A DNA stretch of 37,007 nt, taken from a bacterium (GTDB taxonomy: Bacteria > ARS69). The position numbers were made by a program, and so were the translations under genes. The stretch is taken from the NCBI GenBank assembly GCA_025774865.1, contig JALGZO010000510.1:1-37007 (forward strand), in the 5' to 3' direction. Below the pieces are notes generated by a model. It saw only the letters and a list, made by a program, of their open reading frames with translations, was not told the origin of the DNA and did not search any database. Positions 20,436-37,007 of this stretch are shown piece after piece (position 1 is the first letter of the stretch; every line of letters starts with the position of its first letter).

Positions 20436-21131
20436 CTACAGCCCGCCCCGGATCGCTCCCGGATCGTCGGAGATGATCCCGTCCACGCCGAGGGCCGCGA
20501 TCTCTCTCGCGCGGTCGGGATCATTCACGGTGTACGTCGTGAGGCCCAGCCCACGCTTCCGGACCCTGGCGACGGTCTCCGCCGTCACGTCCTCCTGTCG
20601 CAGGAAGAGCCCCGCCAGGTCGAGCTCAGCCTGCGTCCGTTCCGAGGGCAACGGCTGACCGCGCCGGAGAATGAGGGAGCGGGGCGCGCTCGGTACGAGA
20701 TCGCGCGCGTCGGCCAGCGGCTCTTCCTGAAAGGAAGCGATCCGAAACCGCGCCCCGGGATGCGAGCGCAGGCGGTCGGCGACGTCCTCGAGGACCGATT
20801 CCGGAACGCGCTCCTTGAGCTCCATCGCCAGGGCGCACCGGCCGAGGTACGCGTCGAGAGCGTCGGTCAAACGGGGGATCTCTTCCGAGGAGCCGGCGCG
20901 CAGCGCCTGGAGGTCCTCCGTCCGGAGCTCGCGAAGTAGTCCCCGCCCGTTGGTCGTTCGATCCACCCGTTCGTCGTGCATGAGCACCGCGACGCCGTCC
21001 GAGGTGACGCGGACGTCGAACTCGAACCCCGCCGCTCCGTCGGCGAGCGCACGGGCGAACGAGGCCATCGTGTTCTCCGGCGCCCGGGCGAGCGCGCCAC
21101 GATGCCCCAAGAGGATCGGGGCGTCGCTCAT
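20436..21131 (-). CDS. Glycerophosphodiester phosphodiesterase
   Basis: This enzyme hydrolyses glycerophosphodiesters to glycerol-3-phosphate and an alcohol. The 231-residue TIM-barrel protein keeps the catalytic set: GHRGA (His10, Arg11), PENT (Glu19), FEFDV (Glu37, Asp39) and MHDERVDRTTNG (His52), then AMELKE and the C-terminal GVDGIISDDP. No signal peptide is visible, so it is likely cytosolic (UgpQ type). Its ATG overlaps the stop of the large secreted protein gene upstream (ATGA), implying coupling. Confidence 0.93.
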   Translation of the reverse strand: MSDAPILLGHRGALARAPENTMASFARALADGAAGFEFDVRVTSDGVAVLMHDERVDRTTNGRGLLRELRTEDLQALRAGSSEEIPRLTDALDAYLGRCALAMELKERVPESVLEDVADRLRSHPGARFRIASFQEEPLADARDLVPSAPRSLILRRGQPLPSERTQAELDLAGLFLRQEDVTAETVARVRKRGLGLTTYTVNDPDRAREIAALGVDGIISDDPGAIRGGL

Positions 21132-24100
21132 TGCGTCTGGGGAGCGGCCGGATCGAGTGGCGGGGTGGTGGCATCGGCGGCCAGATCCTGCCCGAGCCGG
21201 ATGCCGGCGCGGTTGTTCCAGGTTTGCCGGTACTCGTCGTGCGGCGGGCCGGTCGGGTACGCCTCGTCGGGTTCGTAAGGGTAGCCCGACATCGCGTGAA
21301 AGGGCAGGGGCTCGACGGTCGCGGAGAACGCCGTGTTCGGATCACCGTCCTTGGCCCATCCGACGAACACGAGGAAGTAGGTGCGCGTCCAGTCGACGTC
21401 GACCGGGTCGAGCGCTTCTTCCGACCAGCGCACGGTGCACTCGTCGCCGGAAGCCATGACGACGTACATGTCGTCGGGATCCTGGAGAAGCGGCGTCACG
21501 TCTCCGTATCTCGTGTACTGACCGTCGTGCTGATCCCAGGGGACCTCGCCGCTCCGGAACACGTCGTAGTCGAATGTCTCGGGTTCCTCCCCGGTGATGG
21601 AGAGAATCGGCTCGGAGTGCCCGCGGTAGTGCAGGTCCGCCGTGTCGGGGAGAAGCGTGGTGACGACCGGCTCGACGTCCGGCTCGCCCACTTGCAAGAG
21701 CGCCCGGTCCCAGTAGAGCCGCAACGTCGTGGAGATGCGCAGGACTGCCTGCCCGTCCGGAAAGGCACCGGTGAGATCGACGGGGATCGACTTCGTCTTT
21801 CCTCCGGGAAATCCCACCTGTTCGGGCCATTTACGCCACCCGCGCCCGTCGCGGATTTCGATCTCGGGCGGCACGAACGAGTGGCGCGGATCCTGGGAGA
21901 TCGCCGTGTTGATGGACGCGTTCGTCCAGTAGAACCACCCGGAGAGGTGGAGCGTGAGGGGCGCGTCCGGCGGTACTTCGCCGAAGTCGATCTCGAGCGA
22001 GTGCCGCTCGACGATTCCCTGGTAGCGAGTGAGCTCGAGGTCACCGACCACGAGCCCGTCGGTGTGGAGCAGACGTTCCGCGACGTCGCGGCCGCGGTGG
22101 TCGACGGCGCGTCGCGGCGGCAACGGCTTCTCGAGCACGTGTACTCCGAACTTCGGAAACGGGGGGAACTGGAACTTCTCGTTCGGCTGGACTTCCGTCC
22201 CCGCCGGGTGGTCGATCGCGACCAGGCGGACTTGATCCAGGTACGTGACCTCGCGAAGCTCTTCGGTGACCTGCGCCACGAGCATGCCTTCCTCATCTGC
22301 GATCATCTGGTCGTCGGTGACGCGGATCACCTCGTCCCAGTCCGGGGGCACGTAGGAACCCGGCGCGATGGGGAGGCCGAGCGGCGTCACCGTCAGGATG
22401 TCGGTGATGTACTCGTGGCGCTCGCCGTTCCACGTGTAGAGGAACGGACAGCTTCCGACGAGGCCGGCCTTCTCCTCGACGACGATCTCGTCTCCGGGCG
22501 ATGCATCGACGACGGCCTGGCGGATCCCGTTCGGCCAGCGAAGACGCAGAGCGTCGACTCGCCCGTCGCCGATTCCGATGTGCAAAGGGCCTCCGGTGGC
22601 GTCGGCTCGGAAGTAGCGATTGCCCGACAAGAGCTCGACGAGGGTACCGACTCCATCGCGGTTGTTCTTCACACCGCGCGGCCACACGATGACCGAGCGG
22701 CCGGTCTGCCCCACGTTTTGCGCCAGCCCCGCGCTCGCCTGTGACGTCACCAGATCGAGCCGTCCGGTCGCTTGCGACACGACGACCGCGACCGGATGGG
22801 CGGCCGCCTCGGCCAGAAGGCTCACCGGCTCAACTGTCTCCAGAAAGACGAAACCGCCCTCGTTCACGCCGAGGGCCGCACCGCTCTGTCGAGCGGCGAC
22901 CAGGTCACGCAGCCCGTCGTTGTCGAGGTCGGCGGCCCAAAGGGAGCTGCCCCCGGCGGGCGGCCACAGGACGGGAGGCTGGATCGCGGCCTCCGCCCCG
23001 GTCGCTTCGAACTGGAGCGCCCCCGCGTTCTTCGCGACGAAGACTCCGCGAGGCGTCGCCGCGGCGAGATCGAGCGCTCCGTCGCCGTCGAGGTCGGCGA
23101 CGGCGAGATCGAACGCGCCCGGGGGCAACGCCGTGAGGCTCGAGTTCACGTTGAACCGGCCTCCGCGGAGATTCTCGACGATCACGACGTCACCCTTGCG
23201 AGTGACGAAGCCGAGGTCCACGTCCCGGTCGTCATCGAGATCGCCGGAGACGACGACCGTCGCCGCCCCGATCACGTCGAGAGAAGCGGCAGTCGTGACG
23301 TCGGTGAACGTCCGGTCGCCGTTGTTCCGGAGCAGAAGGGGCCCGTTGGCCCCGACCGCCACGAGGTCGACATCTCCGTCTTGATCGAAGTCGATCGGCG
23401 CGAACGTCCCGACGGACGTGCGCGTAGCGACGAATGGGGGGTCCCAGCCGGCCTCGACGCCGGCGTGCACGTGGATTCCGCGGCCGCCCGCGCGGACCAG
23501 GTCTATGTTTCCGTCGTTGTCGAGATCGAGGGCGCGAGCCCTGGTCACGCCGAGGATGCCGGCGAGCCCGCGGCTCGCCGTGACGTCGACCCGCCCGTCC
23601 GGGGTTTGCCTGAGGTCGAGCAAGGTCTGTCCGTCGCCCAGGAGCAGATCGAGGTCGCCGTCGCCGTCCAGGTCGGCGGAGTCCGCCCAGCGAATCTCGC
23701 CCGGAATGGGCAGCGACTCGAGCACGAAGGCCGGCATCGGACCGGACGCTCGCACGTGGGGAGGGCGTTCGAAGCGCGTGAGATTCAGGAGCTCGCCGAT
23801 TTCCAGGTCTTCCTCGGAGAGCTCGGCGCCACGGCCGGCGCGAACGAGCTCCTGGTACTCGCGGAGGACGGCCGCTCCTTCGTCGCGACGTTTGAGTTGA
23901 ATGAGGGTCCGGCCGTAGCGGTACAGCGCCGATGCGTAGTGCCGCGGCGCCCCTTCGGACTCGAGATCGACGATGGCCCGGAACTCCTCGAGAGCGGTCT
24001 CGGGCTCCCGGGACCGGACCGCGAGGATCCCGATGTTGTAGTGGAGCTCGGGCGCTTCGCCGCCGAGCTCGCGGCACTCGAGCAGCGCTTCGTGGGCAGC

Positions 24101-24448
24101 GGTCGGATTCCCGCGACGCTTCTCCAGAATGCCTACGGCGTACACGATCGAGGCATCGGTCAAATCGAGGTCGGCCGCCCGGGCGAGATGCAGCGCTGCC
24201 GACTCGAGATCTCCGGCGAGCAACGCGGCGATCCCGGCGTTGCGTGTGTCGCCGGCGCTCTCCGGAGCGAGGTCGGCAGCCCGCCCCAGCTGGACGGCTC
24301 CCTCCGCGAACTCATCGTTGTCGAGGTAGGCTGCGCCCAGGTTGCGATGGAGCCAAAGCCGATCCTCGTCGCTCGTCGCGAGATCGGCGGCCAGGCCGAG
24401 CGCCGGCGCGAAGACGCAGACGGCAGCCCACGGCGCGAGGTAACGCAT
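21128..24448 (-). CDS. Very large secreted TPR - VCBS/FG-GAP - ASPIC/UnbV protein (CRTAC1-like)
   Basis: A 1106-residue protein with an N-terminal signal peptide (MRYLAPWAAVCVFAPALGLA). Residues ~30-220 are TPR repeats (LGAAYLDNDEFAEGAVQLGR, LHYNIGILAVRSREPETALE). About 250-560 is a row of VCBS/FG-GAP units with the calcium-loop motif DLDGDGDLDLLLGD, LDNDGNIDLVRAG, FDQDGDVDLVAVG and others, as in beta-propellers. About 580-655 is an ASPIC/UnbV domain (NRDGVGTLVELLSGNRYFRA). The last ~450 residues (from SCPFLYTWNGERHEYITDIL) are a region often seen after ASPIC in large exported proteins, of unknown function. Such proteins are extracytoplasmic and probably bind calcium and partner proteins or glycans. 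Function is unknown. Confidence 0.85.
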   Translation of the reverse strand: MRYLAPWAAVCVFAPALGLAADLATSDEDRLWLHRNLGAAYLDNDEFAEGAVQLGRAADLAPESAGDTRNAGIAALLAGDLESAALHLARAADLDLTDASIVYAVGILEKRRGNPTAAHEALLECRELGGEAPELHYNIGILAVRSREPETALEEFRAIVDLESEGAPRHYASALYRYGRTLIQLKRRDEGAAVLREYQELVRAGRGAELSEEDLEIGELLNLTRFERPPHVRASGPMPAFVLESLPIPGEIRWADSADLDGDGDLDLLLGDGQTLLDLRQTPDGRVDVTASRGLAGILGVTRARALDLDNDGNIDLVRAGGRGIHVHAGVEAGWDPPFVATRTSVGTFAPIDFDQDGDVDLVAVGANGPLLLRNNGDRTFTDVTTAASLDVIGAATVVVSGDLDDDRDVDLGFVTRKGDVVIVENLRGGRFNVNSSLTALPPGAFDLAVADLDGDGALDLAAATPRGVFVAKNAGALQFEATGAEAAIQPPVLWPPAGGSSLWAADLDNDGLRDLVAARQSGAALGVNEGGFVFLETVEPVSLLAEAAAHPVAVVVSQATGRLDLVTSQASAGLAQNVGQTGRSVIVWPRGVKNNRDGVGTLVELLSGNRYFRADATGGPLHIGIGDGRVDALRLRWPNGIRQAVVDASPGDEIVVEEKAGLVGSCPFLYTWNGERHEYITDILTVTPLGLPIAPGSYVPPDWDEVIRVTDDQMIADEEGMLVAQVTEELREVTYLDQVRLVAIDHPAGTEVQPNEKFQFPPFPKFGVHVLEKPLPPRRAVDHRGRDVAERLLHTDGLVVGDLELTRYQGIVERHSLEIDFGEVPPDAPLTLHLSGWFYWTNASINTAISQDPRHSFVPPEIEIRDGRGWRKWPEQVGFPGGKTKSIPVDLTGAFPDGQAVLRISTTLRLYWDRALLQVGEPDVEPVVTTLLPDTADLHYRGHSEPILSITGEEPETFDYDVFRSGEVPWDQHDGQYTRYGDVTPLLQDPDDMYVVMASGDECTVRWSEEALDPVDVDWTRTYFLVFVGWAKDGDPNTAFSATVEPLPFHAMSGYPYEPDEAYPTGPPHDEYRQTWNNRAGIRLGQDLAADATTPPLDPAAPQTQ

Positions 24449-24583: not shown

Positions 24584-25939
24584 TCAGAGGTAACCGAGCG
24601 CCTCGAGGCGACGGATCATGTCCTCCTCCATGTGGTGGGGCGCCGCCCGGTGGGAGACCAGGTGGACCCACCACCCGTCGAGGGCCGACTCCAGTCGCCG
24701 GGCAACCTCCGGTTCCGCCTCGAACCGGTCGCGGGCTTCGGCCGGGTCGGCCTGCAGGTCGTAGAGGCGGCTCTCGGATCGGTAGGGGCGCTCGGCAAAC
24801 AGGGCGACGAGGTTGTTGTAATCGCTGGCCCCGGATCCGTTCGATTCTCGATCGCGACGGAAGCGGTACTCGCGAACCAACTTCCAACGCCTCCCGCGGA
24901 CCGACTGTTGGTAGCGCCGCTTGTGTTTGACCTCGCTGAAGACATGCTCGCGAGCGGGACCGGCCCCGTTCAGGATGCTGCGCCCGGAGATCGGGTGGGT
25001 GATCTCGATTCCCGCCGCCTCGGCGAGGGTCGGGAGAATGTCGACGTGACTCGCCAGGTCGTCCGACCGACCCGGATGCAATGAATTCCGGGTGGCGTCA
25101 CCCGCCCGGAGGATGAGCGGTACCCGGACGAGCTCTTCGTAGAGGGACTGTCCATGGCCGATCATTCCGTGATCCAGGAGCTCCTCTCCGTGATCTGACG
25201 TGAGAAGCACGATGCTCTTCTCGAGTGCGCCCTGATCGTCGAGCCAGGCGAGACAGCGCCCGACGACCCGATCCGCCTCCTCCACGGCGAAGGCATAGAG
25301 GCGTCGTAGGAATCGCGTCTCTTCGGCGGTGAGGCTCACCTCGCCGCGCTTGAGTTCCCGCTTGAGCGTCTTCCATTGCGAAGCGCGGAAGCGATGGAAG
25401 GGGAACCGGCCGACCGCCTCCGATTCGGCTCGGCGGGCGATTCCGCCTCCGTAGGGCCAGTGAGGCTCGATGAAGTGGAGGTAGGCGAAGACGGGCCCGG
25501 GATCCCGGAACGGGTCCTGCTCCCGAAGCCTTCGGAGGATGTCATCGCCAGGGCCGGCGTCCGACGAGAAGACGTCGAAGCCGCGGGAGAAGCCGAGGCT
25601 CCGGTCCAGCTGCGCGTTGTGCGCGAGACCGATTGTCCGGTATCCCGCGTCTCGAAGCAGCTCGGCCAATGTCGGAACACTGTCCGGCAGGCCGACGGTT
25701 TGCGCCGTATGGTGCGGCCCCTTCGCGACCTCCAAGACCCCGTGCTCCGAAGGATGCAGCGATGTCAGGATCGACGGCACGGCCGGCTTGGTCCACGACG
25801 ACGAGGCGACGGCGCTAGAGTACAGTCGGGCGGAGCTCCCGAGGGCGTCCAGTGACGGCGCCTCCGGCCGGCCGATCTCCGACCAGAGCCCGGCGCCGGT
25901 CAGACAGTCTGCGCGGAGCGCGTCGACGCAGATGAGCAT
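24584..25939 (-). CDS. Sulfatase/alkaline-phosphatase superfamily enzyme, likely threonine-nucleophile type
   Basis: A 451-residue metallo-hydrolase or transferase. Metal-site elements are ICVDALRADCL (Asp6), SSSWTKPAVPSILTSLHPSE, and LLTSDHGEELLDHGMIGHG. The usual C-x-P-x-R sulfatase signature is absent; the equivalent position is Thr50 in SWTKPAV, as in phosphoglycerol- and phosphoethanolamine-transferase-like members, so formylglycine chemistry is unlikely. No signal peptide is visible. The ATG at 25939 begins almost directly in the first beta strand (MLICVD), lacking the usual RPN lead-in, and an in-frame TGA lies three codons upstream, so no longer form exists. It ends the right-hand operon and may modify the glycan or its precursors. 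The family is sure; the substrate is not. Confidence 0.88.
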   Translation of the reverse strand: MLICVDALRADCLTGAGLWSEIGRPEAPSLDALGSSARLYSSAVASSSWTKPAVPSILTSLHPSEHGVLEVAKGPHHTAQTVGLPDSVPTLAELLRDAGYRTIGLAHNAQLDRSLGFSRGFDVFSSDAGPGDDILRRLREQDPFRDPGPVFAYLHFIEPHWPYGGGIARRAESEAVGRFPFHRFRASQWKTLKRELKRGEVSLTAEETRFLRRLYAFAVEEADRVVGRCLAWLDDQGALEKSIVLLTSDHGEELLDHGMIGHGQSLYEELVRVPLILRAGDATRNSLHPGRSDDLASHVDILPTLAEAAGIEITHPISGRSILNGAGPAREHVFSEVKHKRRYQQSVRGRRWKLVREYRFRRDRESNGSGASDYNNLVALFAERPYRSESRLYDLQADPAEARDRFEAEPEVARRLESALDGWWVHLVSHRAAPHHMEEDMIRRLEALGYL

Positions 25940-27662
25940 GAGGTGTCAGGGTGGTCCGGCTCGAAACGAGCCGTAACACGTAGAAACCCGAGTGAACGGG
26001 GCGGCCGTGATCGTTGGTTCCGTCCCAACGGAAGTCGGTGCTCCCACCGGGCAAGGAACCCCGAAACAGCGTCCGGACCCTCCGGCCGGTGACGTCGAAG
26101 ATCTCGAGCGTCGCGGCTTCCTCGGGCGAGGTCATGTCGAGGGTGATGGAGGCGAAGGTCGACCAGGGGTTCGGCCACGCTCGCAGCCCACGGGCGGTCG
26201 GGATCGGTTCGACGATCGTCGCGAGAGCCAAGGTGGTCGGCAGCCCGCAGGGAAGGTCGACCGTCGAGAGCTGGAGTGGGAGCAATTCGCTGTCGGTGGG
26301 CGGCTCCGCCTCGATACGGTATCGGCCGGGGATGACCGTCTCGGCGAACGAGCCGTCTTCGGCTGTCGTCGCCATCCAGTTCGTTCCCGCGTCCAAGGCT
26401 TCACCCCGGACCACGACGGCGGCAAGGCCACGGCCGTCCTCGTCGGTGACGCGCGATGCTACCGTCGTCACCTGCGGCCCCCAGGTCGGTATGATCAGGT
26501 CGACAACGCCGTCCGACGTCAGCGCGACCCCCTCGAAGCGATAAGGGCTGAGCGGCGAGCCCGAGGCCGGGTTCACGACGACGTCGTACGTGCCCGGCTC
26601 GACCCGCAACGAAAATGTGCCGTTCGCGTCGGTGTCGTCGTTGGACGTTGGATAGTGGTCGCACGTTCCGGGTTGCCGGAGATCGAGATCCGCGGCGGCC
26701 AGCGGAACGCCGGCCGGGTCGAGCGCGGTCCCGGTCACGACCACTCCCGGCCGCAGCACCATCGTGCCGAGATCGAGGTCTCGCTGCACGTTCACGTGGT
26801 ACAGAGCCGCGGACGCGAGCGGAATTCCCCGGGGGGCGACGGCGAACACGTGGAAGATCCCCTCCGGCACGTTCAGAGTGAAGCCTCCCGTCGCGTCCGT
26901 GTCGTCGTTCGCCGTGGGGATGCGCCGGCCGGTCGGCTCCTCCACATCCAGGTCGATGAGCGCGAGCGGCCGGCCGTCCTCACGTTCGATCCGACCCGTG
27001 AGGAGAAAACCCCGGGGAAGGGTCACGTCCAGGACGGCGTCGCCCGTCAGATCGTAGCTGTCTACCTGCAGCGCACCGACTCCGATGCCCGGCGGGGGCT
27101 CGAATACGATGTCCCACTCCCCGGGAACCACCGTGATGCCATACCGACCATCGGGACCGGTGTCGTCGTTCGACGTCGCGAGTTGCTGGCCGGTCGCCGG
27201 GTCCTTCACGTCGAGGTCCACGTCCGCGATCGGGAAGCCGGCGTGATCCACGACCCGACCCTGCAGCCGGGAGCCGGCGGGAAGCCCGATGTCCCGGACC
27301 GTGTCCCAGCCGAGTGGCAGATTCCGGAGCTGGATGGGCGCCAGGTCGATCCGATTCTCGGGAGGTTCGTACCGGACGTGGTATACCTCCGGCTTCACGA
27401 CCATCTCGTAGTAGCCGAAGACATCGGTCTTGTCCTCTTGTCCCTCGTAGCCCCGAGCCGAGGGGTCGATCCGGATGCCCGATTGCGCGTCCCAGAAGTC
27501 GAGGTCGACGTCCGCGAGCGGCGCACCGGAAGGATCCGTCACTCGTCCTTCGAACACGACCTGGCCGGACGCCGGGCACGCCGCCGCGCCCATGACGACG
27601 GCGACTGCGCACGCCAGCGCCCTTCGGCCACTCGATCTCCGGGTCAGTGTGATGGCGGCCAA
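25815..27662 (-). CDS. Secreted repeat protein: five carboxypeptidase-regulatory-like repeats plus FlgD/T9SS-like sorting domain (paralogue 2)
   Basis: A 615-residue predicted secreted protein. TTG 27662 is the start: it has AGGAG six bases upstream and yields a signal peptide ending near PASGQ (~34). Five repeats of ~85-95 residues follow (about 36-480), each with the pattern VxGRVxDxxGxPLAxVDLD, then NDDTDxxGxF, then a VPxGxYxVxxxPP strand. Residues ~480-570 form a FlgD-like Ig/sorting domain (WPNPWSTFASITLDM, EIFDVTGRRVRTL, DHGRPVHSGFYVLRL). It abuts its paralogue with a 9-bp gap. The last 42 residues, after RTTLT, are an Arg/Pro-rich tail read out of frame through the start of the sulfatase-like gene; this looks like a lost stop codon or a frameshift. 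Confidence 0.85.
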   Translation of the reverse strand: MAAITLTRRSSGRRALACAVAVVMGAAACPASGQVVFEGRVTDPSGAPLADVDLDFWDAQSGIRIDPSARGYEGQEDKTDVFGYYEMVVKPEVYHVRYEPPENRIDLAPIQLRNLPLGWDTVRDIGLPAGSRLQGRVVDHAGFPIADVDLDVKDPATGQQLATSNDDTGPDGRYGITVVPGEWDIVFEPPPGIGVGALQVDSYDLTGDAVLDVTLPRGFLLTGRIEREDGRPLALIDLDVEEPTGRRIPTANDDTDATGGFTLNVPEGIFHVFAVAPRGIPLASAALYHVNVQRDLDLGTMVLRPGVVVTGTALDPAGVPLAAADLDLRQPGTCDHYPTSNDDTDANGTFSLRVEPGTYDVVVNPASGSPLSPYRFEGVALTSDGVVDLIIPTWGPQVTTVASRVTDEDGRGLAAVVVRGEALDAGTNWMATTAEDGSFAETVIPGRYRIEAEPPTDSELLPLQLSTVDLPCGLPTTLALATIVEPIPTARGLRAWPNPWSTFASITLDMTSPEEAATLEIFDVTGRRVRTLFRGSLPGGSTDFRWDGTNDHGRPVHSGFYVLRLVSSRTTLTPHAHLRRRAPRRLSDRRRALVGDRPAGGAVTGRPRELRPTVL

Positions 27663-27671
27663 CGAGAACTC

Positions 27672-29384
27672 CTACCGCAGCAAGGTGATCTTCCGGGTGA
27701 GCGACTGTGCCCCCGCCTCGAGACGCACGAGATAGACGCCGGCGGCGACGCGCCGACCGAACTCGTCGCGGCTGTCCCAGGAGACCATGTGGCGCCCGAC
27801 CCCGACGGGTCCGGACCGCAGGTCCCGAACGCGACGGCCGGCGAGATCGAAGATCGAAACACGAACGTCACTCTCGGCTCGCGCCAGCTCGAATCGGACT
27901 CGAGTCGAGACCTGGAACGGGTTCGGAACATTGGCCAGCAGCTCGGTGGCTGGGGACGTCGAGCCGACGTTCGCGCCGACCGTGGCGGAAGGCAGCACGA
28001 AGTCGATCACGGTGGTCGCCTCGAGGGGATCGACCACGATGCTCCTCGGAAGCAGTCCGCTTTCCGGAGGCGGGATCGCGGTGATCGTCCAGCTCCCGGC
28101 CGGCAAGCGGATGGAGTACAGGCCGCTGGTGTCGGTGTTGTCCTCTCCCACGGTCGGGTGGTCGAGCCCGGTCGGGAGCTCGGCGGCGTCCAGATCGACT
28201 CCGGCGACGGGACTGCCCCAGATGTCACGCACGACCCCGGACACGATGTGCCCGGGCTCGAGGGTGATCGTCCCCAGGGCGAGGTTGCCCATGACCGTGA
28301 CGTCGCGCACGACGGTGGCGGCGAGGTTTGCACTGGGGGACGGCTTGACCCAGAGGTCGAACGTCGCAACCGGGGAGAGCAACGAGAACTGTCCGGCCCC
28401 ATCCGTGTTGTCGTCGGGAGTGGGGAGGTCGTTTCCGCTGGGTCGGTCCACCATGTCGAGGTCAGCCCCCCCCACCGGTTGGGCGAGCTCGTCACGTACG
28501 ACGCCCGTGACGGCAAAGCCGGTCTCGAGCTGGACCGTTCCGACGTTCACGTTGGCGGCAACGGCGAGATCGTAGAGCGTCTTCCACGCCAGTCCGCTGG
28601 CGGATGGCGGCTTGAAGGTCATGTCGTACGTGCCCGCCGGCACGACGACATTCAGGTTGCCGGCACCATCGGTGTTGTCACGGGGCGTGAAGATCACCTC
28701 GCCGGTCGCGAGGTCCTCGAAATCCGTGTCGGCGTCCGCGATCGCCATTCCGCCGGGGCCGCGGACCTGGCCGCTGACGAAGAAGCCGTCGGCGAGCGTG
28801 ATGGTGCCGAGAGAGGTCGTTCCCGAGACGGCGACATTGAAGAGAACGGTGGCCGCCTTGGGAAGTCCGCCCGGGGGCGTGAAGTATACGTCGTAAGTGA
28901 GTGCCGGCACGAAGACCGCGAACTGGCCGGTTGGGTCCGTGTTGTCGTCGTTCGCCTCGTATTCGTCCCCGGTCGCGACGTCGAAGAAGTCGAGGTCGAC
29001 AGCTTGAATGGGGGCCCCCGCCTCGTCTTGCACGGTGCCGATGGCGAGGTGCGCATCCCACAGGAACGTGTCGAGGGTCATGTTCGTGTTCACGACGACC
29101 GGCTTGATCACCCGGTCCAGGTACGGGCTTCCGGGGGGAGGCGAGAACGTGACCTCGTACTCTCCGACCGGAACATCGACGTTGTAGAAACCGCCCGCAT
29201 CGGTGTTGTCGAAGGGCGTGAATATGATGTCTCCCGTTCCCAGGTCGCGAAAGTCGAGGTCCACGTTGAAGATCCCGAAGCCCTGTTCGTCCACGACTTG
29301 CCCGGACACCGTGACGGCCGACACCGGGTCGGCGAAGATCGTCGCCCCCAGGAACGAGGCCGTGATCGCGAGAACTCGAAGCAT
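27672..29384 (-). CDS. Secreted repeat protein: five carboxypeptidase-regulatory-like repeats plus FlgD/T9SS-like sorting domain (paralogue 1)
   Basis: A 570-residue protein with a signal peptide (MLRVLAITASFLGATIFADP). Five tandem repeats of ~86-90 residues each carry VSGxVxDxxGxxIxxVDLDF, a DNTDxxGxF/Y turn (for example TPFDNTDAGGFYNVDVP and ANDDNTDPTGQFAVFVP) and a YDVxFxPPxG strand. The C-terminal ~85 residues form a FlgD-like Ig/sorting domain (VPNPFQVSTRVRFEL, SIFDLAGRRVRDL, GVYLVRLEAGAQSLTRKI). Such ends direct proteins to type IX-like secretion or cell-surface attachment. GAGGGGG lies just before the ATG at 29384. It begins 11 bp after the AlgE-like porin gene. The family is structural or adhesive; no enzyme motif is visible. 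Confidence 0.88.
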   Translation of the reverse strand: MLRVLAITASFLGATIFADPVSAVTVSGQVVDEQGFGIFNVDLDFRDLGTGDIIFTPFDNTDAGGFYNVDVPVGEYEVTFSPPPGSPYLDRVIKPVVVNTNMTLDTFLWDAHLAIGTVQDEAGAPIQAVDLDFFDVATGDEYEANDDNTDPTGQFAVFVPALTYDVYFTPPGGLPKAATVLFNVAVSGTTSLGTITLADGFFVSGQVRGPGGMAIADADTDFEDLATGEVIFTPRDNTDGAGNLNVVVPAGTYDMTFKPPSASGLAWKTLYDLAVAANVNVGTVQLETGFAVTGVVRDELAQPVGGADLDMVDRPSGNDLPTPDDNTDGAGQFSLLSPVATFDLWVKPSPSANLAATVVRDVTVMGNLALGTITLEPGHIVSGVVRDIWGSPVAGVDLDAAELPTGLDHPTVGEDNTDTSGLYSIRLPAGSWTITAIPPPESGLLPRSIVVDPLEATTVIDFVLPSATVGANVGSTSPATELLANVPNPFQVSTRVRFELARAESDVRVSIFDLAGRRVRDLRSGPVGVGRHMVSWDSRDEFGRRVAAGVYLVRLEAGAQSLTRKITLLR

Positions 29385-29395
29385 GGGAATCCCCC

Positions 29396-31132
29396 TCAAA
29401 AGTTGAACACCACCGACAGTTTGTGGAAGAGAGCGCGGGTTGCTCGCTCGTCGAATCCGCTTCCCGGTTCGAAGCGGGCGAGCACGTACTCGATGTCGAG
29501 GTTCGGAATCTCCTCGAACGCGACGATCAGATCCCACTCGTGGCCGACTTCGCGGCTTCCGCCCCGCGGCTGTGTCTCGAGATTCGTATGGAACAGTCGC
29601 TGCTGTGGGTGCGGTTGCCGGTACCGGTGGATGACGAAATCGACGGAGCTTCGCTTCGTCGGTCGCATTCCCATCCCGATCGTTTCGATGGAGAGGTTCG
29701 ACAGTTCCGGATCCAGGAGCTCCCCGTAGTATTTGAAGCTCGCGACACCGCCGAACTTGTCGTTGTTGTCCTGGAAGCCGGTCTGCTCGTAGTGATCGCC
29801 GGGGTTCGGTCCGCCGGATCCGTAGGCCCAGCCCACGGTGACCGTGAGGCGGGTCCGACGCAGGAGACGAAGTTGCAGGCCGGCGTCCCACGCGTAGGCG
29901 TCGAGCTGCTCGCCGAGCCGCGTCCCGCGCAGGGCGGACAGTTCCAGCCAGTGTCGCACGCCGCTCCGGAACCGCCCGTGCGAGCGGAGGCCCAGCCACA
30001 CGGGGGCGTCATCGGTCTGACGGAGGTGAGCTTGCCGGATCACATACGCTTCGCTCAGCCACAAGCGCTTCATCTCGCGGCCGACGACGAGGATCCAGTT
30101 CGTACGATCGCGCTGCCGGCTCGAGATCGTCGCAAAGCGGGTCGACACCGAGGCTTCGCCGCGCCACCGCCCGGTCGCGAAGCGTAGGCGGACGCCGTCG
30201 AGGTTCTCGTCGTACAGCCACTCGCGTGGCTCGTCGAAGTCCTGTCGTCCCACCTGCAGGGCGAGCAGGGGTCGTGGGCGCCAAACGACGTATGCCTGCT
30301 TCAGATTCCATTGCGAGAGATTCGCTTCGTCCCCCTCGTCGTCGAAGATGATGCGGCGTCCGCGCTGGCCGAATCTCGTGAACGCCTCGAGCTGCGGAGT
30401 CAGAAGTGCGTCCACGTGCATGTCGATGGCCCAGTTGCTTCGCGTGTGATTGCCGGGACGAGCGGGGTTCAGATCGAATTCCGTTTCGGGCTCGTATTCG
30501 TACTGGAACCTCCCACCGCCGCGGATCCGCCCGCCGAGGGCGCTCCACGCCGTGCGATGGGCGTGGTCGTCGTCGATGGCGCGGGGGAGGGCCAGGATCA
30601 CGCCGCCTCGAATCGTCGCGCTCTTGCTCACGCGGAACTCGATTCCGGCGATCTCCAGGGTCCGGCGGCCCGCGTCGACGGCGGTGATCGTGCCCTCGAT
30701 CTGCTCCTTGCCGGGATCGGAGTTGCGCCGCTTGATGCGGCGCGCGCGCAGCGCCCCCTTCGCTCCGCTGGCGTCGACCTCCAACCATTCGTCCGGTGAC
30801 AGGTCGGACAGCGCCAGGGGAGTGCGGTCCTCGGTCCTGATCTTGCAGCTGTCCGGGAGCGTCACGATGAGGTCGAGGATCTGGATCGTGCGGGCGCCGG
30901 CGTCGATGCTCTGCAGCGGCCCGATGAGCTCCACCTGGTCTCCGGACAGACGGTCGGTCCGAATGTCGATCTCCTTCGCGCGGAACGGTGCTCCCGGCTT
31001 CCAGGAACCGTCGGCCTCGACGACCAGGCCGGGAAGGAGTCGCTCCCAGTCGGTGGCGGACATCGTGGCGAGCGAGGGAGCGGCGAACAGCAAGAGCCAT
31101 GCGAGCCAGGAGGTTCGAAGCAGCGGCCTCAT
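29396..31132 (-). CDS. AlgE-like outer-membrane porin with DUF5666-like N-terminal domains
   Basis: A 578-residue protein with a signal peptide (MRPLLRTSWLAWLLLFAAPS). Residues ~40-185 contain two small beta-barrel repeats of the DUF5666 type (VELIGPLQSIDAGARTIQIL and QIEGTITAVDAGRRTLEIAG). The rest is a barrel matching the alginate export (AlgE) family, with the landmark VGRQDFDEPREWLYDENLDG, strands such as LRLLRRTRLTVTVGWAYGSG, and a terminal Phe (VVFNF). AlgE is the channel through which alginate leaves the outer membrane; family members in other phyla export or import varied polymers. ATG 31132 overlaps the kinase stop (ATGA). Its place after glycosyltransferases, an ABC exporter and two kinases suggests glycan export. 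Confidence 0.85.
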   Translation of the reverse strand: MRPLLRTSWLAWLLLFAAPSLATMSATDWERLLPGLVVEADGSWKPGAPFRAKEIDIRTDRLSGDQVELIGPLQSIDAGARTIQILDLIVTLPDSCKIRTEDRTPLALSDLSPDEWLEVDASGAKGALRARRIKRRNSDPGKEQIEGTITAVDAGRRTLEIAGIEFRVSKSATIRGGVILALPRAIDDDHAHRTAWSALGGRIRGGGRFQYEYEPETEFDLNPARPGNHTRSNWAIDMHVDALLTPQLEAFTRFGQRGRRIIFDDEGDEANLSQWNLKQAYVVWRPRPLLALQVGRQDFDEPREWLYDENLDGVRLRFATGRWRGEASVSTRFATISSRQRDRTNWILVVGREMKRLWLSEAYVIRQAHLRQTDDAPVWLGLRSHGRFRSGVRHWLELSALRGTRLGEQLDAYAWDAGLQLRLLRRTRLTVTVGWAYGSGGPNPGDHYEQTGFQDNNDKFGGVASFKYYGELLDPELSNLSIETIGMGMRPTKRSSVDFVIHRYRQPHPQQRLFHTNLETQPRGGSREVGHEWDLIVAFEEIPNLDIEYVLARFEPGSGFDERATRALFHKLSVVFNF

Positions 31133-32364
31133 CGCGACCTCCGGGCGGCGACGAGGAGCTTCTCTGCGAGGCCGGGCCAGGAAGGGCGTAGGGCGTAGAC
31201 CGCCGCGAGTCGGAGGAGGGCCAGTGTCTCCCACGACTCCAGGTTCGGTGGTCCACCGCCCCGCCCGTCCCGGTACGCGGCGAGAAACGCGTGTCTCGCC
31301 GCGAGAGCCTGCTTCGCCGTGATGCGTCGCTGCAGCGCTCTCAACTGGAGATGAGCCAGGAAATTCCCGGGGTCGAGCGCGCGGGGCGCGGCCGCGGCCC
31401 AGTCCCAGTCGATGATTCCGATGCGGGAACCGGCACGGATGATCTGCTTGTCGTGAAGATCGCGGTGCGCGAAGACCGGCGACTCGCGGTCGGGTACCAC
31501 CGCGATGCCTTCGAACGCGACGAAGGCCGCCGCCAACCGGGGCGCGAGGTCCGGGCGAACGATCGCGACCCGGCCCACGAACTTGCAGATCGTGGCCAGC
31601 TCGTCTTGAAGGCCGTAGACGGAGAGGCCGGCCGTCGGAGCCCGCTGGTACGAGCGCACCGCGCGCCCGATCGAACTCGCGATTCCGGGGAGCGCCTCGG
31701 CCAGGTGCTCGTGCACCGACTCACCCGGAAGCCAGGTCGTGACGACGAGCCGACGCCTGCGATCGAAGAGGCGAATCTCGGGCACGTCCGCGGGGATTCG
31801 CGAACGATGTCGGGCGAGATTGGTGAAGGCCGTCGCCAGAAGATCGTGACCGCGGCCGGAGAAGACCTTTCCGAGAAGGTCGACGGGCGTCGGGGCCGCT
31901 CCGGAGGGGAGGGTCAGACGGAAACAGGCGCGCCGCGCGAACCGGTGGGCGAGGATCTCGAACCCTGCGTCTTGCCGCGGGCTGCGACCTCCCACGATCC
32001 GGCCGATCCCCGCGAGGAAGGCGGGGCGAAGGACCTCGCGAAGCTCCGGCAAGTCGGGGTCGACCGGGGAGATGCGGACGAAGGTCCGCTCCTCGTCCTG
32101 GCCGATGAACGCGGGAACACTTCGCTCGAGGCCGGTCGCGGTTTCGACGGTACTCATCGCACCGTGGATCGCCACCTGGTCGCCTCGCACTTCGACGCGC
32201 TCCGGCGAGAAGCCGGTGCAGAGAACGCCCCCGTCGGGGAGCTCTCGAGAGGATTCGGAGAACCCCTCCGGAGAGGTGATGGGGGCGAGGTAAGCGCGCA
32301 GTCCGTCCGGAACGTACCAGCGCGATGCGGTAGCCGACACCTGTGTCTCGCGCGTGGCAATCAT
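31129..32364 (-). CDS. APH-fold phosphotransferase, second of a tandem pair (divergent)
   Basis: A 411-residue protein of the aminoglycoside phosphotransferase/choline kinase fold. The catalytic loop reads FAHRDLHDKQII and the metal loop IGIIDWDWA. The Brenner motif has Gln where most family members have Asn (HxDxxxxN), as in maltokinases. Downstream GNFLAHLQLRALQRRIT matches the neighbouring kinase, so the two are diverged tandem paralogues. The N-terminal ~200 residues are poorly like known kinases (GFSPERVEVRGDQVAIHG) and may be a substrate-specific lobe. Both ends overlap neighbours by ATGA. A sugar or sugar-precursor kinase is more likely than antibiotic resistance, given the context. 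Confidence 0.82.
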   Translation of the reverse strand: MIATRETQVSATASRWYVPDGLRAYLAPITSPEGFSESSRELPDGGVLCTGFSPERVEVRGDQVAIHGAMSTVETATGLERSVPAFIGQDEERTFVRISPVDPDLPELREVLRPAFLAGIGRIVGGRSPRQDAGFEILAHRFARRACFRLTLPSGAAPTPVDLLGKVFSGRGHDLLATAFTNLARHRSRIPADVPEIRLFDRRRRLVVTTWLPGESVHEHLAEALPGIASSIGRAVRSYQRAPTAGLSVYGLQDELATICKFVGRVAIVRPDLAPRLAAAFVAFEGIAVVPDRESPVFAHRDLHDKQIIRAGSRIGIIDWDWAAAAPRALDPGNFLAHLQLRALQRRITAKQALAARHAFLAAYRDGRGGGPPNLESWETLALLRLAAVYALRPSWPGLAEKLLVAARRSR

Positions 32365-33677
32365 GCCGCGACCTCCCGCTCGGCCGTCAGGACACCGTGG
32401 GCGCGGTCGAGGATCGCAAGAGAGGCGTCGGACCAATCGTCGGCGAGGTTTCGAAACGGAACCATCGCGAGTTTCGCGAGCTGGAGCGCGGTGAAGAAGG
32501 GCAGGTCCGCGACCGGTGGACGATCCGCCAGGTAGTCCGCGAGGAATCGGCTCCGGAATCGACTTGCCTCGTCGGCGCTCACTCGCCGCTCCAGTTCGGC
32601 GAGGTGCAGGTGCGCGAGGAAGTTGCCGACGTCGAGTCGCGGATCATCGACGCCGGCTTCGTCCCAATCGATGAGGGTCGGACCGTCCGGGCCCATCAGA
32701 AGCTGGTGGTAATGGAAGTCGCCGTGCACGATCGTTCGCAGGCCGTGTCTGACCGCTCCGTGGGCCTGCGCCAGTTCGCGCGCGAGTGAGACGGCGGCAC
32801 CCGCGACCGGGCCGTCGCCGATTCGGGCGAGATCTTCGAGCACGCGGCGCCCCTCGCGGATGGCGCCCTCCGGCGAGGCGGCGTCCGGGAGGTCGCCAGG
32901 GTCGAGGGCGTGCAAGGCGCGGAGGTTCCGTGCCGCGGCGATGCAACCGTCGACGGCGTCAGCGGCCGCGAGGATCGTGCCCCACGGCTCCCCGTCTCTC
33001 CACTCCTGCAACAGAATGCGCCGGGCGGCGTGATAGCCCAGCGGTCGAGGCGTACACAGGCCGTCCGTCCCCCGAGCGGGACGGGCCCAGAGGTGTCGCA
33101 TCACCCGGTACACGCGAGCTCCGGAATCGTCGCCGTACGCCTGGGCTACCAAGCGACGCTCACGCGACTCGCCCGCGCGGTCTCGGGTTCCGAGCTCGAC
33201 CCCCGCGACGCAGCGTCGCTCCGGCTTGTACTTCAGTATGCCGACGCGGCTCTTGCGCGCGCGCACGCGCTCTTCGTGGGGGGAGAGGCCCGGGACCGAA
33301 TCGTGTATGACGTGCTTCAGGTGCGCGGCGTCGGACACGGTGCGAAGCCCGATGACGTTGCGATCGAGAGGAAACCGGAAGAAGACAGCCCGTAGCTCGG
33401 GCAGAAGCTCCGCCCAGCCGTCCCCTTTCTCCCGGGCGCGGTACTTGCGGAAGCATTCGCTGGGGTCTCCGCTCAGGAAGACCTTCACATAGCCGATCGC
33501 CTCGAGGGCCCGCGTTGCGTCGTGCAGGCCGAGCAGACAGCTCGTGCCGGGCTTGAAGCGTACGTACCCGATCGCGAGGTCGCGCGGTGGTTCCGCTCGG
33601 CGCCGCACGAACGCTTGGGCGACGCCCTCCCGCAACTCCTGCGAGTCCGCCAAGCGACGAAGGTCACGCGGACGCAT
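32361..33677 (-). CDS. APH-fold phosphotransferase, first of a tandem pair
   Basis: A 438-residue kinase-fold protein. The catalytic loop is IVHGDFHYHQLLMG and the metal loop PTLIDWDEAGVDDPRLDVGN, followed by FLAHLHLAELERRVSADEA. As in its downstream paralogue, the loop Asn is replaced by Gln. The N-terminal half carries VGILKYKPERRCVAG, a strand with Lys that resembles the ATP-binding Lys strand of the fold. ATG 33677 overlaps the ABC gene by 14 bp. It sits between an ABC exporter and its kinase paralogue, so it probably phosphorylates a sugar or lipid precursor of the cluster's product. The substrate is unknown. Confidence 0.85.
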   Translation of the reverse strand: MRPRDLRRLADSQELREGVAQAFVRRRAEPPRDLAIGYVRFKPGTSCLLGLHDATRALEAIGYVKVFLSGDPSECFRKYRAREKGDGWAELLPELRAVFFRFPLDRNVIGLRTVSDAAHLKHVIHDSVPGLSPHEERVRARKSRVGILKYKPERRCVAGVELGTRDRAGESRERRLVAQAYGDDSGARVYRVMRHLWARPARGTDGLCTPRPLGYHAARRILLQEWRDGEPWGTILAAADAVDGCIAAARNLRALHALDPGDLPDAASPEGAIREGRRVLEDLARIGDGPVAGAAVSLARELAQAHGAVRHGLRTIVHGDFHYHQLLMGPDGPTLIDWDEAGVDDPRLDVGNFLAHLHLAELERRVSADEASRFRSRFLADYLADRPPVADLPFFTALQLAKLAMVPFRNLADDWSDASLAILDRAHGVLTAEREVAA

Positions 33678-35496
33678 GGTGAACCACTCCGGCGGTCGGG
33701 GAAGCGCAGAGTTCGCGATAGGCGGCGCAGGAGGCCAGCAACTGCTCGTGCGAGCCGGTACCGGCGACCCGCCCCCCGTCAAGCACCACGATCCGGTCCG
33801 CGAGGCTCGCATTACGGACGTCGTGAACGATACAGATGGACGTCTTGTCCGCGGTCACCGTGCCGATCACGTCCCACAGGTCGGCGCGGGCGCGCGCGTC
33901 GAGGAAGGTGTCGGGTTCGTCGAGAATGACGATCGGCGTCTCGCGAAGGAAGGCGCGGGCGAGCGCCAGTCGTTGTCGTTCCCCGCCGGACAGTCCGGCC
34001 CCCGCTTCGCCGAGTATCGTGTCGTAGCCGTCCGGAAGGGATGCCACCCGATCGTGGATGCCGACCAGGCGGGCGGCGCGCTCCACGTCTTCCGGCGAGA
34101 GGCTCTCCTGCCCGTATGCGATGTTGTCCCAGACACTGATGCCCAGCAGGACGGTCTCTTGGAGAACGAACGAGATTCGATCTCGAAGGGCCGCGAGCTC
34201 GAGGCGCTCCAGCGGAACGTCGTCGAGGAAGATGGCGCCTTCCGATGGCGTGTAAAGACGCGGTACGAGTCGCGCCAGCGTCGTCTTGCCGGCGCCGGAC
34301 CGACCGACGAGCGCGATCCTCTCGCCGGGGTCGATCGTCAGGCTGAGTTCGCGGAGCGCGGGCCGCCCCGGTTCGTACGCGAAGCCCACCCCCTCGAACC
34401 GGAGTCGACCCCGGACTTCTGCCGGTACGAGGCTGCCCGCTCGATGGAGGTCCTCGGTCGGCCTCTCCAGCACATCCGCGATTCGCTCCGCCGCGACGAC
34501 CCCTCTCGCTAACCGCCCCGTGAGGCGTGAGAACGTGCGAATCGGTCGGTACAACATCCCCAAGTACGAGATCGCGAGCACCAGGTCTCCCGCCGTCATC
34601 GTGCCGCTCGTGACGCGCAACCCGCCGATCCACAGGACGAGACAGGTTCCGAGCGCGATCAGGAGCTCGACGCGTCGTTCGAGCGCCGCCTGGAGGCGCG
34701 TGGCACGAAGCCCGGAACGGAAGCTCCGGCGATGGCTCGACTGGAATCGAGTCCGTTCCGTCTCCTCCGTGCCCTGCAACTTCACGAGGGCGATGGACCG
34801 CACCGATTCCGCCGTGGTGGCGGCTACCTGACTCTCGCGGCGGCGCTGCTGCCGGATCGCAGCCTTGATACGCCGGGAGGACCGCGACGCCGAGACGAAG
34901 AGCAACGGAGCGATCGCGAGAGCGGCGATCGCGAGTCGCCAGTCCAGACGAGCGAGGAACACGGCGACCGCGACGAGCACCAACGTCTGCGAAAGCAGCT
35001 TGAGGGTCGCCCGCACGAGAAGATTCCGGACGAGGTTCATGTCGCCGGTGATGCGCAGAACGAGATCGCCCGTGCGGGCTCGGCCGTGCTCGACGAGCGA
35101 GAGTTCGAGGATGTGTCGAAACAGGTCACGGCGGAGTCGGTAGGCCAAGGTCTGTCCGGCCTTCGCTCCGAGATATCGCTGTCCATAGGCGGAGATCGCA
35201 CCGAGACCCGCGATCACGAGAATCGCCGCGGACGCCGCCGCAATGATCTGAGTCGCGGAGAGCGAGGCCAGAACGCCGGGGGGCGGGACGCCGCGGTCGG
35301 GCACCAGGGCGTAGTCGAGGACGATCTTCAGCGGCCACGGGCGCAAGATCGTGAACGCCGTGAAGGCCAGCGAAGAAGCGACGGCGCCCGCCAGCACCAC
35401 GCGAGACTTGCGGAGCTGGGGCCAGAAGCGGACGTACACCGCCGCCAAGGAGTCGATCCGGAGTCCCTCTCGAGGCGGTAGGCCGATGCGAATCAC
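33664..35496 (-). CDS. MsbA-like ABC exporter (fused membrane and ATPase domains)
   Basis: A 610-residue half-transporter that would work as a homodimer in the inner membrane. About five to six membrane helices occupy residues ~30-330 (VVLAGAVASSLAFTAFTILR, LLIALGTCLVLWIGGL). The ATPase has Walker A GRSGAGKTT (~400), Q-loop FVLQETVLLGISVWDN, signature LSGGERQRLALARAF, Walker B IVILDEP and switch His in CIVHD. The D-loop region reads DEPDTFLDA rather than the usual DEPTSALDA. GTG 35496 overlaps the glycosyltransferase stop (GTGA). Relatives move lipids, glycolipids and peptides. In this operon, between glycosyltransferases and an AlgE-like porin, it most likely flips a lipid-linked glycan or glycolipid. 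Confidence 0.93.
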   Translation of the reverse strand: MIRIGLPPREGLRIDSLAAVYVRFWPQLRKSRVVLAGAVASSLAFTAFTILRPWPLKIVLDYALVPDRGVPPPGVLASLSATQIIAAASAAILVIAGLGAISAYGQRYLGAKAGQTLAYRLRRDLFRHILELSLVEHGRARTGDLVLRITGDMNLVRNLLVRATLKLLSQTLVLVAVAVFLARLDWRLAIAALAIAPLLFVSASRSSRRIKAAIRQQRRRESQVAATTAESVRSIALVKLQGTEETERTRFQSSHRRSFRSGLRATRLQAALERRVELLIALGTCLVLWIGGLRVTSGTMTAGDLVLAISYLGMLYRPIRTFSRLTGRLARGVVAAERIADVLERPTEDLHRAGSLVPAEVRGRLRFEGVGFAYEPGRPALRELSLTIDPGERIALVGRSGAGKTTLARLVPRLYTPSEGAIFLDDVPLERLELAALRDRISFVLQETVLLGISVWDNIAYGQESLSPEDVERAARLVGIHDRVASLPDGYDTILGEAGAGLSGGERQRLALARAFLRETPIVILDEPDTFLDARARADLWDVIGTVTADKTSICIVHDVRNASLADRIVVLDGGRVAGTGSHEQLLASCAAYRELCASPTAGVVHHASA

Positions 35497-36695
35497 GCCC
35501 CGACCTCCTGCGATGCGCGCGGTGCCGTGAAGGCGCGCTCCGTCTCGATCAGCGAGACCACCCGATTCGCGAGGTCACCCCAGGATCGACCGGCGGCAAC
35601 GCGACGAGCCGCCCGCCCGAGCCTCTGTCGTAGCGCGGGATCGCTCCGCAATCGCGCGAGCGCCTCCGCCAGAGCTTTCGGACTTCCGGGTTCGACGAGA
35701 AGTGCGCTCTCGTCGTCGGTCAGCATCTCGGCGATCTGCCCGACGCGACTCGCCACCACGGGAAGTCCCATGGCGCAGTACTCGATGATCTTGAGCGGCG
35801 AGAAGTAGAAGCAGTCGAGCGCCGGATACGGCGCGACGGCGACGTCGGCGTTGCGAAGTAGGGTCGGGATCTGCTCGTGGGGGACCGCACCCGCGAGATT
35901 GAACGACGACTCGGACAATTCCCCCCGGAGCCGAGCCGCCAGTTCATCCCGATACGGGCCGTCCCCCACGATGATCAAACGGCACTCTCCGGTCGCGTGG
36001 ATCCTTCGGAACGCGTCCGCGAGAATGTCCAGGCCGTGCCACGGCTTCAGGCTTCCGACGAACGCGACCGTGAAGGGGCGCTCCGACGAGTCCTTTGCCA
36101 CGTCGCGGAACATCCCCGCGTTGTAACCGTTCGGGAGAACCGTGACGCGCTCCGGTGCCGCACCTCGGGCCACGACATGACGCCTCAGCTCGTCGGATAC
36201 GGTCACCACGGACGAGGCCTCCGAAAGCAGCCGGCGCTCGAGAAACGTCGCGACGCTTCGAAGGGAGAGATCGCGGTGTCGGGCCGCTTCGTCGACCAGG
36301 GGTGCGTTGACCTCGAGAATCCACGGGATTCCCCAGCGATAGGCGGCCTGCGCGCCCGCCACACTCCACAACGAGTACCTCTCGTAGAGCGCGTCCAGGC
36401 GACCCTGATCGTGGAGAACGCGCAAGGCGAGATCGGCGGCGTCGTTGCTCGCGAGGAGCGAAGGAAAGGACGAGGCGCCCTCTTCGAGAAGCTCGACCGT
36501 GGGGCAGGGCGGGGCAACATCGTGCGGCACGGCGACCCGGTCACGGGCGCGGCGCGGTCGCAGCCGGGCGGTCACGGCCGTCAGCCCCTCCACTCGCGGA
36601 TCGAGGGCCGTCAGCATCTCGCGGACGTGGACGCTGGCGCCCTTCGGTCCTAGCAGCGGTACGCCGGAATCGGCGTTGAGGTACACGAGTTGCAT
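35493..36695 (-). CDS. GT4-family (group 1) glycosyltransferase
   Basis: A 400-residue GT-B-fold enzyme that would transfer a sugar from a nucleotide donor. The N-terminal acceptor domain begins MQLVYLNADSGVPLLG and has GASVHVREMLTAL. The C-terminal donor domain has VAFVGSLKPWHGLDIL, LIIVGDGPYRDEL, and the donor-binding block SPLKIIEYCAMGLPVVASRV with its conserved Glu. No signal or membrane helix is visible, so it is cytosolic or peripheral. The start ATG 36695 lies 4 bp after the stop of the next glycosyltransferase. Donor and acceptor sugars are unknown. Confidence 0.93.
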   Translation of the reverse strand: MQLVYLNADSGVPLLGPKGASVHVREMLTALDPRVEGLTAVTARLRPRRARDRVAVPHDVAPPCPTVELLEEGASSFPSLLASNDAADLALRVLHDQGRLDALYERYSLWSVAGAQAAYRWGIPWILEVNAPLVDEAARHRDLSLRSVATFLERRLLSEASSVVTVSDELRRHVVARGAAPERVTVLPNGYNAGMFRDVAKDSSERPFTVAFVGSLKPWHGLDILADAFRRIHATGECRLIIVGDGPYRDELAARLRGELSESSFNLAGAVPHEQIPTLLRNADVAVAPYPALDCFYFSPLKIIEYCAMGLPVVASRVGQIAEMLTDDESALLVEPGSPKALAEALARLRSDPALRQRLGRAARRVAAGRSWGDLANRVVSLIETERAFTAPRASQEVGA

Positions 36696-36699
36696 GGTG

Positions 36700-37007
36700 T
36701 CACCCGGTTCCCGTCGCGGCCGCGGCAAACTCCGGAGTGGATCCGACGCGCCCGCCGCTTGTCTCGAACAGCCGCAGGAGCTCACTGACGCTGCGGCGAA
36801 CGTCGAAGAGGTTCCGCACCCGACTCCGGCCGGCGCGCCCGAGCGATTGGCGGAGGCCGGGGGACTCGGCCAGAGACGCGAGGACGTCGGCCAGGAGATC
36901 GGGCCGGTCTGGGGGTACCAGCAGCCCGGTTTCGTTGGCGCCGGCGATCTCCGGAATGCCGGTCACGGGGGTCGAGACGAAAGGGGTCTCGAGCGCCATG
37001 GCCTCGA
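36700..37007 (-). CDS. C-terminal part of a second GT4-type glycosyltransferase (5' end outside the window)
   Basis: The frame is open to the right edge. The ~102 visible residues begin in the donor-binding block (EAMALETPFVSTPVTGIPEI, where the lead Glu is the conserved donor-binding residue), then GANETGLLVPPDRPDLLADV and the terminal helices LGRAGRSRVRNLFDV. This is the standard end of GT4 glycosyltransferases. The internal ATG at 36999 is not the true start because the conserved motif begins before it. It belongs to the same operon, which therefore extends to the right of this window. Confidence 0.85.
   Translation of the reverse strand, partial: EAMALETPFVSTPVTGIPEIAGANETGLLVPPDRPDLLADVLASLAESPGLRQSLGRAGRSRVRNLFDVRRSVSELLRLFETSGGRVGSTPEFAAAATGTG

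Follow-up and report, generated by a model that had tools for sequence, protein, structure and literature searches.

The 37,007-nucleotide window analysed here is the entire contig JALGZO010000510.1 (C514) of a bacterial genome in 785 contigs (G000, lineage ARS69), and it carries nine genes, all on the minus strand, between positions 24584 and 37007. This locus is most likely the 3′ part of a conserved surface-glycan operon, the 5′ part of which lies off the contig. The conserved unit comprises six genes on one strand in the order GTc–GTa–GTb–ABC exporter–kinase 1–kinase 2 (ABC, ATP-binding cassette), GTc being a GT28-like glycosyltransferase and GTa and GTb members of family GT4. An earlier, sequence-only reading had proposed a nine-gene system for glycan synthesis, export and decoration. 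Its expectation that the exporter, the kinases and an AlgE-like outer-membrane barrel travel together, on which it had staked itself, held in our neighbourhood comparison; the conserved core, however, is six genes rather than nine, and one of them (GTc) is not on the contig. We judge it rather probable that, as a general scheme, the locus assembles and phosphorylates a glycan destined for export to the cell surface.

Recurrence of the module across phyla

Searching 60 genomes with kinase 1 revealed tandem kinases in other taxa, surrounded by the exporter, glycosyltransferases and barrel known from the window. When 84,980 species genomes were scanned with a GTb alignment, at least 568 relatives were confirmed; the best 80 of these were kept as loci, a set skewed to the taxa nearest in GTb, cyanobacteria foremost. 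These 80 loci come from Cyanobacteriota (35), Pseudomonadota, Zixibacteria, Gemmatimonadota, Chloroflexota, Planctomycetota, Nitrospirota, Myxococcota, Acidobacteriota, Verrucomicrobiota, Deinococcota, Actinomycetota, KSB1 and one Methanoperedens archaeon, so that among the best 80 the module spans about a dozen phyla, reached from GTb as the only starting point. Gene order was counted in loci with a flank long enough to judge, hence the varying denominators. GTa lies upstream of GTb in 65 of 72 loci and GTc, which carries a GT28 C-terminal domain, in 59 of 67; the ABC gene is next to GTb in 56 of 69, and a kinase directly follows the ABC gene in 51 of 52, with two kinases or a fused kinase in 25 of those 51. 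Kinases 1 and 2 form one fused protein of ∼770–840 residues in L067, L106, L112, L113, L116 and L117, and in genome G176 GTa is fused to GTb while kinase 2 and the barrel lie within one open frame. The GTb of the window is 37–45% identical to those of 13 compared loci. The converse test, which is free of that bias, covered 386 genomes and found strong GTb matches in 10, kinase 1 in 12 and both in 7 (hypergeometric p about 4e-10).

Because the same genes recur in the same order in distant taxa, their adjacency in the window is not due to chance. The probability that unrelated genes came to adjoin on one strand by accident is negligible, and for the core the idea is refuted by an order kept across phyla, by gene fusions and by all-or-none presence in the window's family; only the non-conserved sulfatase gene at the 3′ end would suit it.

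The module also occurs on plasmids, in ten Escherichia coli plasmid records and one from Paracoccus. It is present in 18 of 5,426 complete E. coli genomes, always plasmid-borne and at ≥99% identity, in the order GT28–GT4–GT4–ABC–phosphotransferase–phosphotransferase–alginate export protein–nucleotide sugar dehydrogenase. This copy is an independent, annotated instance of the gene set described in the sequence-only reading. A quick GTb tree with long branches, used only for the phylum span of GTb and the placement of the plasmid copy, showed GTb spanning phyla and the E. coli copy grouping with Enterobacteriaceae and Pantoea. The full module is on conjugative IncFIA/FIB plasmids in L134 (NZ_CP012501.1, 9589-19767) and 17 further E. 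coli plasmids, where it adjoins genes annotated as fimbriae, autotransporter or enterotoxin.

Some loci depart from the common arrangement. That of Candidatus Methanoperedens nitroreducens (L079) has GTc–GTa–GTb–ABC and two kinases without a porin. Divergent variants are found at L122 (KSB1), L125 and L127, L122 having three kinases and a pair of adjoining ABC genes ahead of GTb. At L180 (5108-8611, minus strand) a single open reading frame covers both kinase 2 and an AlgE-type barrel and contains an internal stretch resembling a signal peptide; a true fusion of this kind would be topologically odd.

Components of the locus and what they favour

The nine co-directional genes and their domains, assigned from open reading frames and Pfam, are placed as the sequence-only reading had described them:

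36700..37005, minus strand: GTa, GT4 glycosyltransferase, C-terminal 101 residues only, the gene being cut by the contig end (Pfam Glycos_transf_1, E 2e-11)
35493..36695, minus strand: GTb, GT4 glycosyltransferase (Pfam Glyco_trans_1_4, E 1.9e-31; signature DxGxPxxGxKGxSxHxxE)
33664..35496, minus strand: ABC exporter with fused membrane and ATPase domains, MsbA-like (Pfam ABC_membrane, ABC_tran)
32361..33677, minus strand: kinase 1, APH fold with an extra N-terminal domain (Pfam APH, E 9.8e-17; catalytic HGDFHYHQ, IDWD)
31129..32364, minus strand: kinase 2, diverged, APH/choline-kinase-like (Choline_kinase, E 4.3e-4, below cut-off; catalytic HRDLHDKQ, IDWD)
29396..31132, minus strand: AlgE-type outer-membrane barrel with an N-terminal DUF5666 region and a signal peptide (Pfam Alginate_exp, 91.1 bits)
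27672..29384, minus strand: repeat protein 1, secreted, CarboxypepD_reg repeats and FlgD_ig tail (Pfam; TIGR04183)
25815..27662, minus strand: repeat protein 2, paralogue of repeat protein 1 (Pfam CarboxypepD_reg, FlgD_ig)
24584..25939, minus strand: sulfatase-superfamily protein, adjacent to the conserved unit but no member of it (Pfam Sulfatase, E 2.3e-33)

Gene starts were refined by homology and signal peptides before spacings were computed. From GTa downwards these are +4 (GTa/GTb), −4 (GTb/ABC), −14 (ABC/kinase 1), −4 (kinase 1/kinase 2), −4 (kinase 2/barrel), +11 (barrel/repeat protein 1), +9 (repeat protein 1/repeat protein 2) and −125 bp (repeat protein 2/sulfatase). Overlaps of 4 bp are typical of translationally coupled genes. 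The overlaps, or gaps of at most 11 bp, noted in the sequence-only reading hold apart from the single 125-bp overlap. The GTa fragment aligns with residues 323–412 of GTa in the Zixibacteria locus L070.

Profile and predicted fold both agree that the barrel is of the AlgE type. It scores 91.1 bits against Pfam PF13372 (cut-off 25.2), and a profile built from 14 barrels matches AlgE (4afk; E 9e-37) and nothing else among solved structures, with the conserved QTGLxxN...GE...ELSNL core aligned. The predicted model (mean predicted local distance difference test, pLDDT, 72.7) gave AlgE for all of its top 17 Foldseek matches (E 2.5e-19), other porins reaching at best 4.6e-10. An AlgE-type barrel directly follows the kinases in 11 of 21 non-cyanobacterial loci and in 0 of 25 cyanobacterial loci, whereas an OprB/SLH porin does so in 14 of 25 cyanobacterial and 0 of 21 non-cyanobacterial loci; neither barrel type is present in the loci named Chloroflexota, Actinomycetota and Methanoperedens. 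The barrel is an exchangeable part of the system, its type matched to the lineage. Since two unrelated barrels occupy the same place, there is good evidence that outer-membrane passage is part of the function. Alginate secretion in Pseudomonas has a homologous outer-membrane exit protein, AlgE, but the present system differs in its ABC exporter and kinases and in the extra DUF5666 region of its barrel. Neither the operon nor its recurrent neighbours include the GT2 synthase Alg8, Alg44, AlgK, AlgX, AlgG or AlgL, a gene content that is not that of an alginate system.

Both kinases have the catalytic HxD loop and metal-binding Asp of the APH fold, with Gln where most APH enzymes have Asn in the catalytic loop. 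H318, G319, D320, Q325, D337 and D339 of kinase 1 are invariant in 18 homologues, as are H300, R301, D302, Q307, D319 and D321 of kinase 2 in 15. Because the catalytic loop and metal-binding residues are kept without exception, both enzymes are probably active. The predicted model of kinase 1 (pLDDT 89.3) has maltokinase as its nearest solved fold, and the mycobacterial enzyme, likewise an APH fold with an N-terminal domain, is the closest over the whole length; a TM-score of about 0.48 nevertheless places kinase 1 in the same superfamily only as maltokinase and glucosamine kinase. In the model, residues 34–101 and 144–225 each run through three strands, one helix and two more strands, and both have a YKPxxS/R motif, a likeness that hints at a duplicated N-lobe. 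Among phages, no relatives of kinase 1 were found. A role in defence was considered and rejected, PADLOC giving no match for the kinases, barrel, repeat protein 1 or sulfatase and, for the ABC protein, nothing beyond generic ATPase matches.

By profile, the solved relatives of kinase 1 are small-molecule and sugar kinases, among them glucosamine kinase and the corramycin and macrolide kinases, and relatives of APH enzymes and of macrolide glycosyltransferases are familiar in resistance. The locus might on these grounds handle an antibiotic or other natural product, the glycosyltransferases and kinases inactivating the compound and the ABC protein expelling it. We consider this very improbable: dozens of unrelated taxa have three glycosyltransferases, an exporter and one or two kinases in fixed order, together with a nucleotide-sugar dehydrogenase and barrels of the AlgE or OprB kind, and no biosynthetic genes recur in the neighbourhood.

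The exporter has an intact Walker A motif (GRSGAGKT) and SGG signature. By curated cut-offs it is not classed as MsbA (TIGR02203, 379.8 bits against an equivalog cut-off of 602), the heterocyst exporter HepA (NF045513, 300.4 against 725), ChvA/NdvA (TIGR01192, 182 against 585.4) or PglK (NF050066, 150.9 against 1000), MsbA being the highest-scoring of these families. Like the PglK- and MsbA-type flippases it is a fused membrane–ATPase ABC exporter encoded beside GT4 transferases, but those systems have no counterpart to the tandem kinases and porin, and their cut-offs are far from being reached. The MsbA score is compatible with modification of a surface glycolipid or of lipopolysaccharide (LPS), in which the glycosyltransferases and kinases would decorate a lipid and the MsbA-like protein would flip it, and phosphorylation by kinases is usual in LPS cores. 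This account is improbable, however, given that the exporter falls under the MsbA equivalog cut-off and that the module is complete in Chloroflexota and in an archaeon, both without LPS; nor, to our knowledge, does an AlgE-type channel pass lipids.

ABC exporters also carry soluble glycans, as in the ChvA/NdvA cyclic glucan systems, which have one large glucan synthase where this operon has three glycosyltransferases. The product here could correspondingly be a soluble, phosphorylated anionic oligosaccharide that the ABC protein exports to the periplasm and the porin lets out, for example for metal binding or osmoprotection. Such a product would fit porins, exchangeable in type, following the kinases instead of Wza-type machines, the lack of polymerase, ligase or chain-length genes recurring in the neighbourhood, and the presence near 28 loci of two-component systems, which are often stress or ion sensors. 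We nonetheless think it rather unlikely, as the exporter scores far below the ChvA cut-off and best against MsbA, and the porin is absent from the monoderm-type and archaeal loci.

A probable scheme of glycan assembly, phosphorylation and export

In the scheme that we favour, a glycan phosphorylated and exported to the cell surface, GTc, GTa and GTb would work at the inner face of the inner membrane, where they would join sugars into a short chain, probably attached to a lipid carrier. The chain would probably contain uronic acid, since some of the operons include a nucleotide-sugar dehydrogenase. The glycan would be phosphorylated by one or two APH-fold kinases, most probably to cap it or to mark it for export. 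The alternative is priming, as the sequence-only reading had proposed, but capping or action on the carrier would suit the kinases equally well. The MsbA-like ABC protein would carry the glycan across the inner membrane; in diderms its way through the outer membrane would be the barrel encoded beside the kinases, here of the AlgE type. Two surface proteins of the type IX secretion system (T9SS) type, encoded along with the barrel in Zixibacteria and in the window's family, may bind or display the glycan. The substrate, the order of steps, the chain length, the function of the kinases, the role of the repeat proteins and phosphorylation as an export mark are what we infer. The nearest mechanistic model is the O9a system of E. 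coli, where the kinase WbdD caps the O-antigen before ABC export and so marks a glycan for its exporter. There the exporter is Wzm/Wzt, whereas the kinases here have the APH fold and are often paired; as far as tested, the two systems are non-homologous.

Several points weigh against this scheme. The operon encodes neither a priming transferase nor a polymerase or ligase, so that a lipid-linked polymer is no more than presumed. Many diderm loci have no adjacent barrel within the stretch examined, and a porin that adjoins the operon is no proof that it carries this glycan. Many cyanobacteria have a single kinase, and APH-fold enzymes act on antibiotics and small molecules too.

All the parts belong to known families. 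The absence of Wzx/Wzy and synthase hallmarks, which had been noted for the window, extends to the comparison: no Wzx/Wzy/Wza cluster or alginate synthase recurs near the module, and in G000 no flippase, polymerase, Wza and Wzc are found in the cluster, Polysacc_synt genes lying elsewhere in the genome. The suspicion that the gene set was undescribed also stands, in that no description was found in the open-access literature (subscription papers and preprints lay outside the search). We tentatively suggest that the module may be a further, undescribed glycan export route apart from Wzx/Wzy, Wzm/Wzt and synthase systems, using kinase-marked glycans, an MsbA-like exporter and the porin of the lineage, in many phyla, an archaeon and conjugative plasmids. 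Envelope glycans are usually sorted into a few pathways by hallmark genes; because the module is without these, annotation pipelines report scattered genes, labelled 'glycosyltransferase', 'ABC transporter' and 'aminoglycoside phosphotransferase'. If true, the route would lie behind a surface polymer or oligosaccharide of many organisms, and the misleadingly named phosphotransferases would have a role. Cultivated carriers are available in relatives of Nostoc and Anabaena, Pantoea sp. BAV 3049 and Pelagibius litoralis.

Lineage-specific neighbours and the source genome

GTc, kinase 1 and the barrel are all present in G001 and G004, two members of the window's family, and all absent from two other members, G002 and G003. 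In G004, GTa comes after GTc, kinase 1 after the ABC gene, and the two repeat proteins after the barrel. GTc was not found in G000; because G001 and G004 carry it, before GTa in G004, it is very likely the operon's missing first gene in G000. A weak match to GTc on contig C63 of G000 was rejected, as it sits in a run of peptidoglycan genes and fits MurG. Contigs C372 and C146 were likewise rejected as the missing part of the operon, since another GTa is split between them: their ends (L144 and L146) overlap within a GTa-like gene, upstream of which lie sugar-phosphate transferase-like and polysaccharide deacetylase-like genes, apparently a separate glycan locus.

The repeat proteins are a lineage-specific addition to the system: only in Zixibacteria and in the family of the window do they occur with the barrel. 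Repeat protein 2 has a 55% identical homologue at the same position in G004. The FlgD_ig tail of repeat protein 1 passes the cut-off for a T9SS type A sorting domain (TIGR04183, 32.0 bits against 23), whereas repeat protein 2 falls just below it (21.7) and is not classed as T9SS cargo. Because that cut-off is passed and G000 has an SprA homologue (SprA_N above cut-off), surface display of repeat protein 1 through type IX secretion is plausible.

The sulfatase-superfamily protein, by contrast, does not hold its place in the system. No homologue was found in three Zixibacteria genomes that have the system (a search without a positive control), and in L025, too, it does not follow the repeat proteins. 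Instead of the [CS]xPxR motif it has SSWTKPAVPS, with Thr rather than Cys or Ser at the nucleophile position, so it lacks the formylglycine signature. At 25815-25960 repeat protein 2 enters the sulfatase frame by 125 bp with an atypical C-terminus, and a stop in another frame lies just before the sulfatase ATG. This stop, together with an overlap that does not match the other spacings, suggests a frameshift or an assembly error.

Upstream genes in Zixibacteria encode a histidine kinase, a sigma-54 response regulator, an epimerase and a nucleotide-sugar dehydrogenase. The dehydrogenase gene forms part of the operon at three loci of Zixibacteria type (L060, L066 and L070) and on the E. coli plasmids; the two-component systems near 28 loci are the only other recurrent neighbour. 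In the window, 135 bp downstream of the sulfatase gene, a 1106-residue protein (21128-24448, minus strand) with TPR and FG-GAP repeats and a weak UnbV/ASPIC match is probably a separate unit. Elsewhere in G000, further loci on C438 (L051), C318 (L028) and C298 (L145) have another ABC exporter with a kinase 1 relative after it and no glycosyltransferases, another kinase pair and a second GTa–GTb pair.

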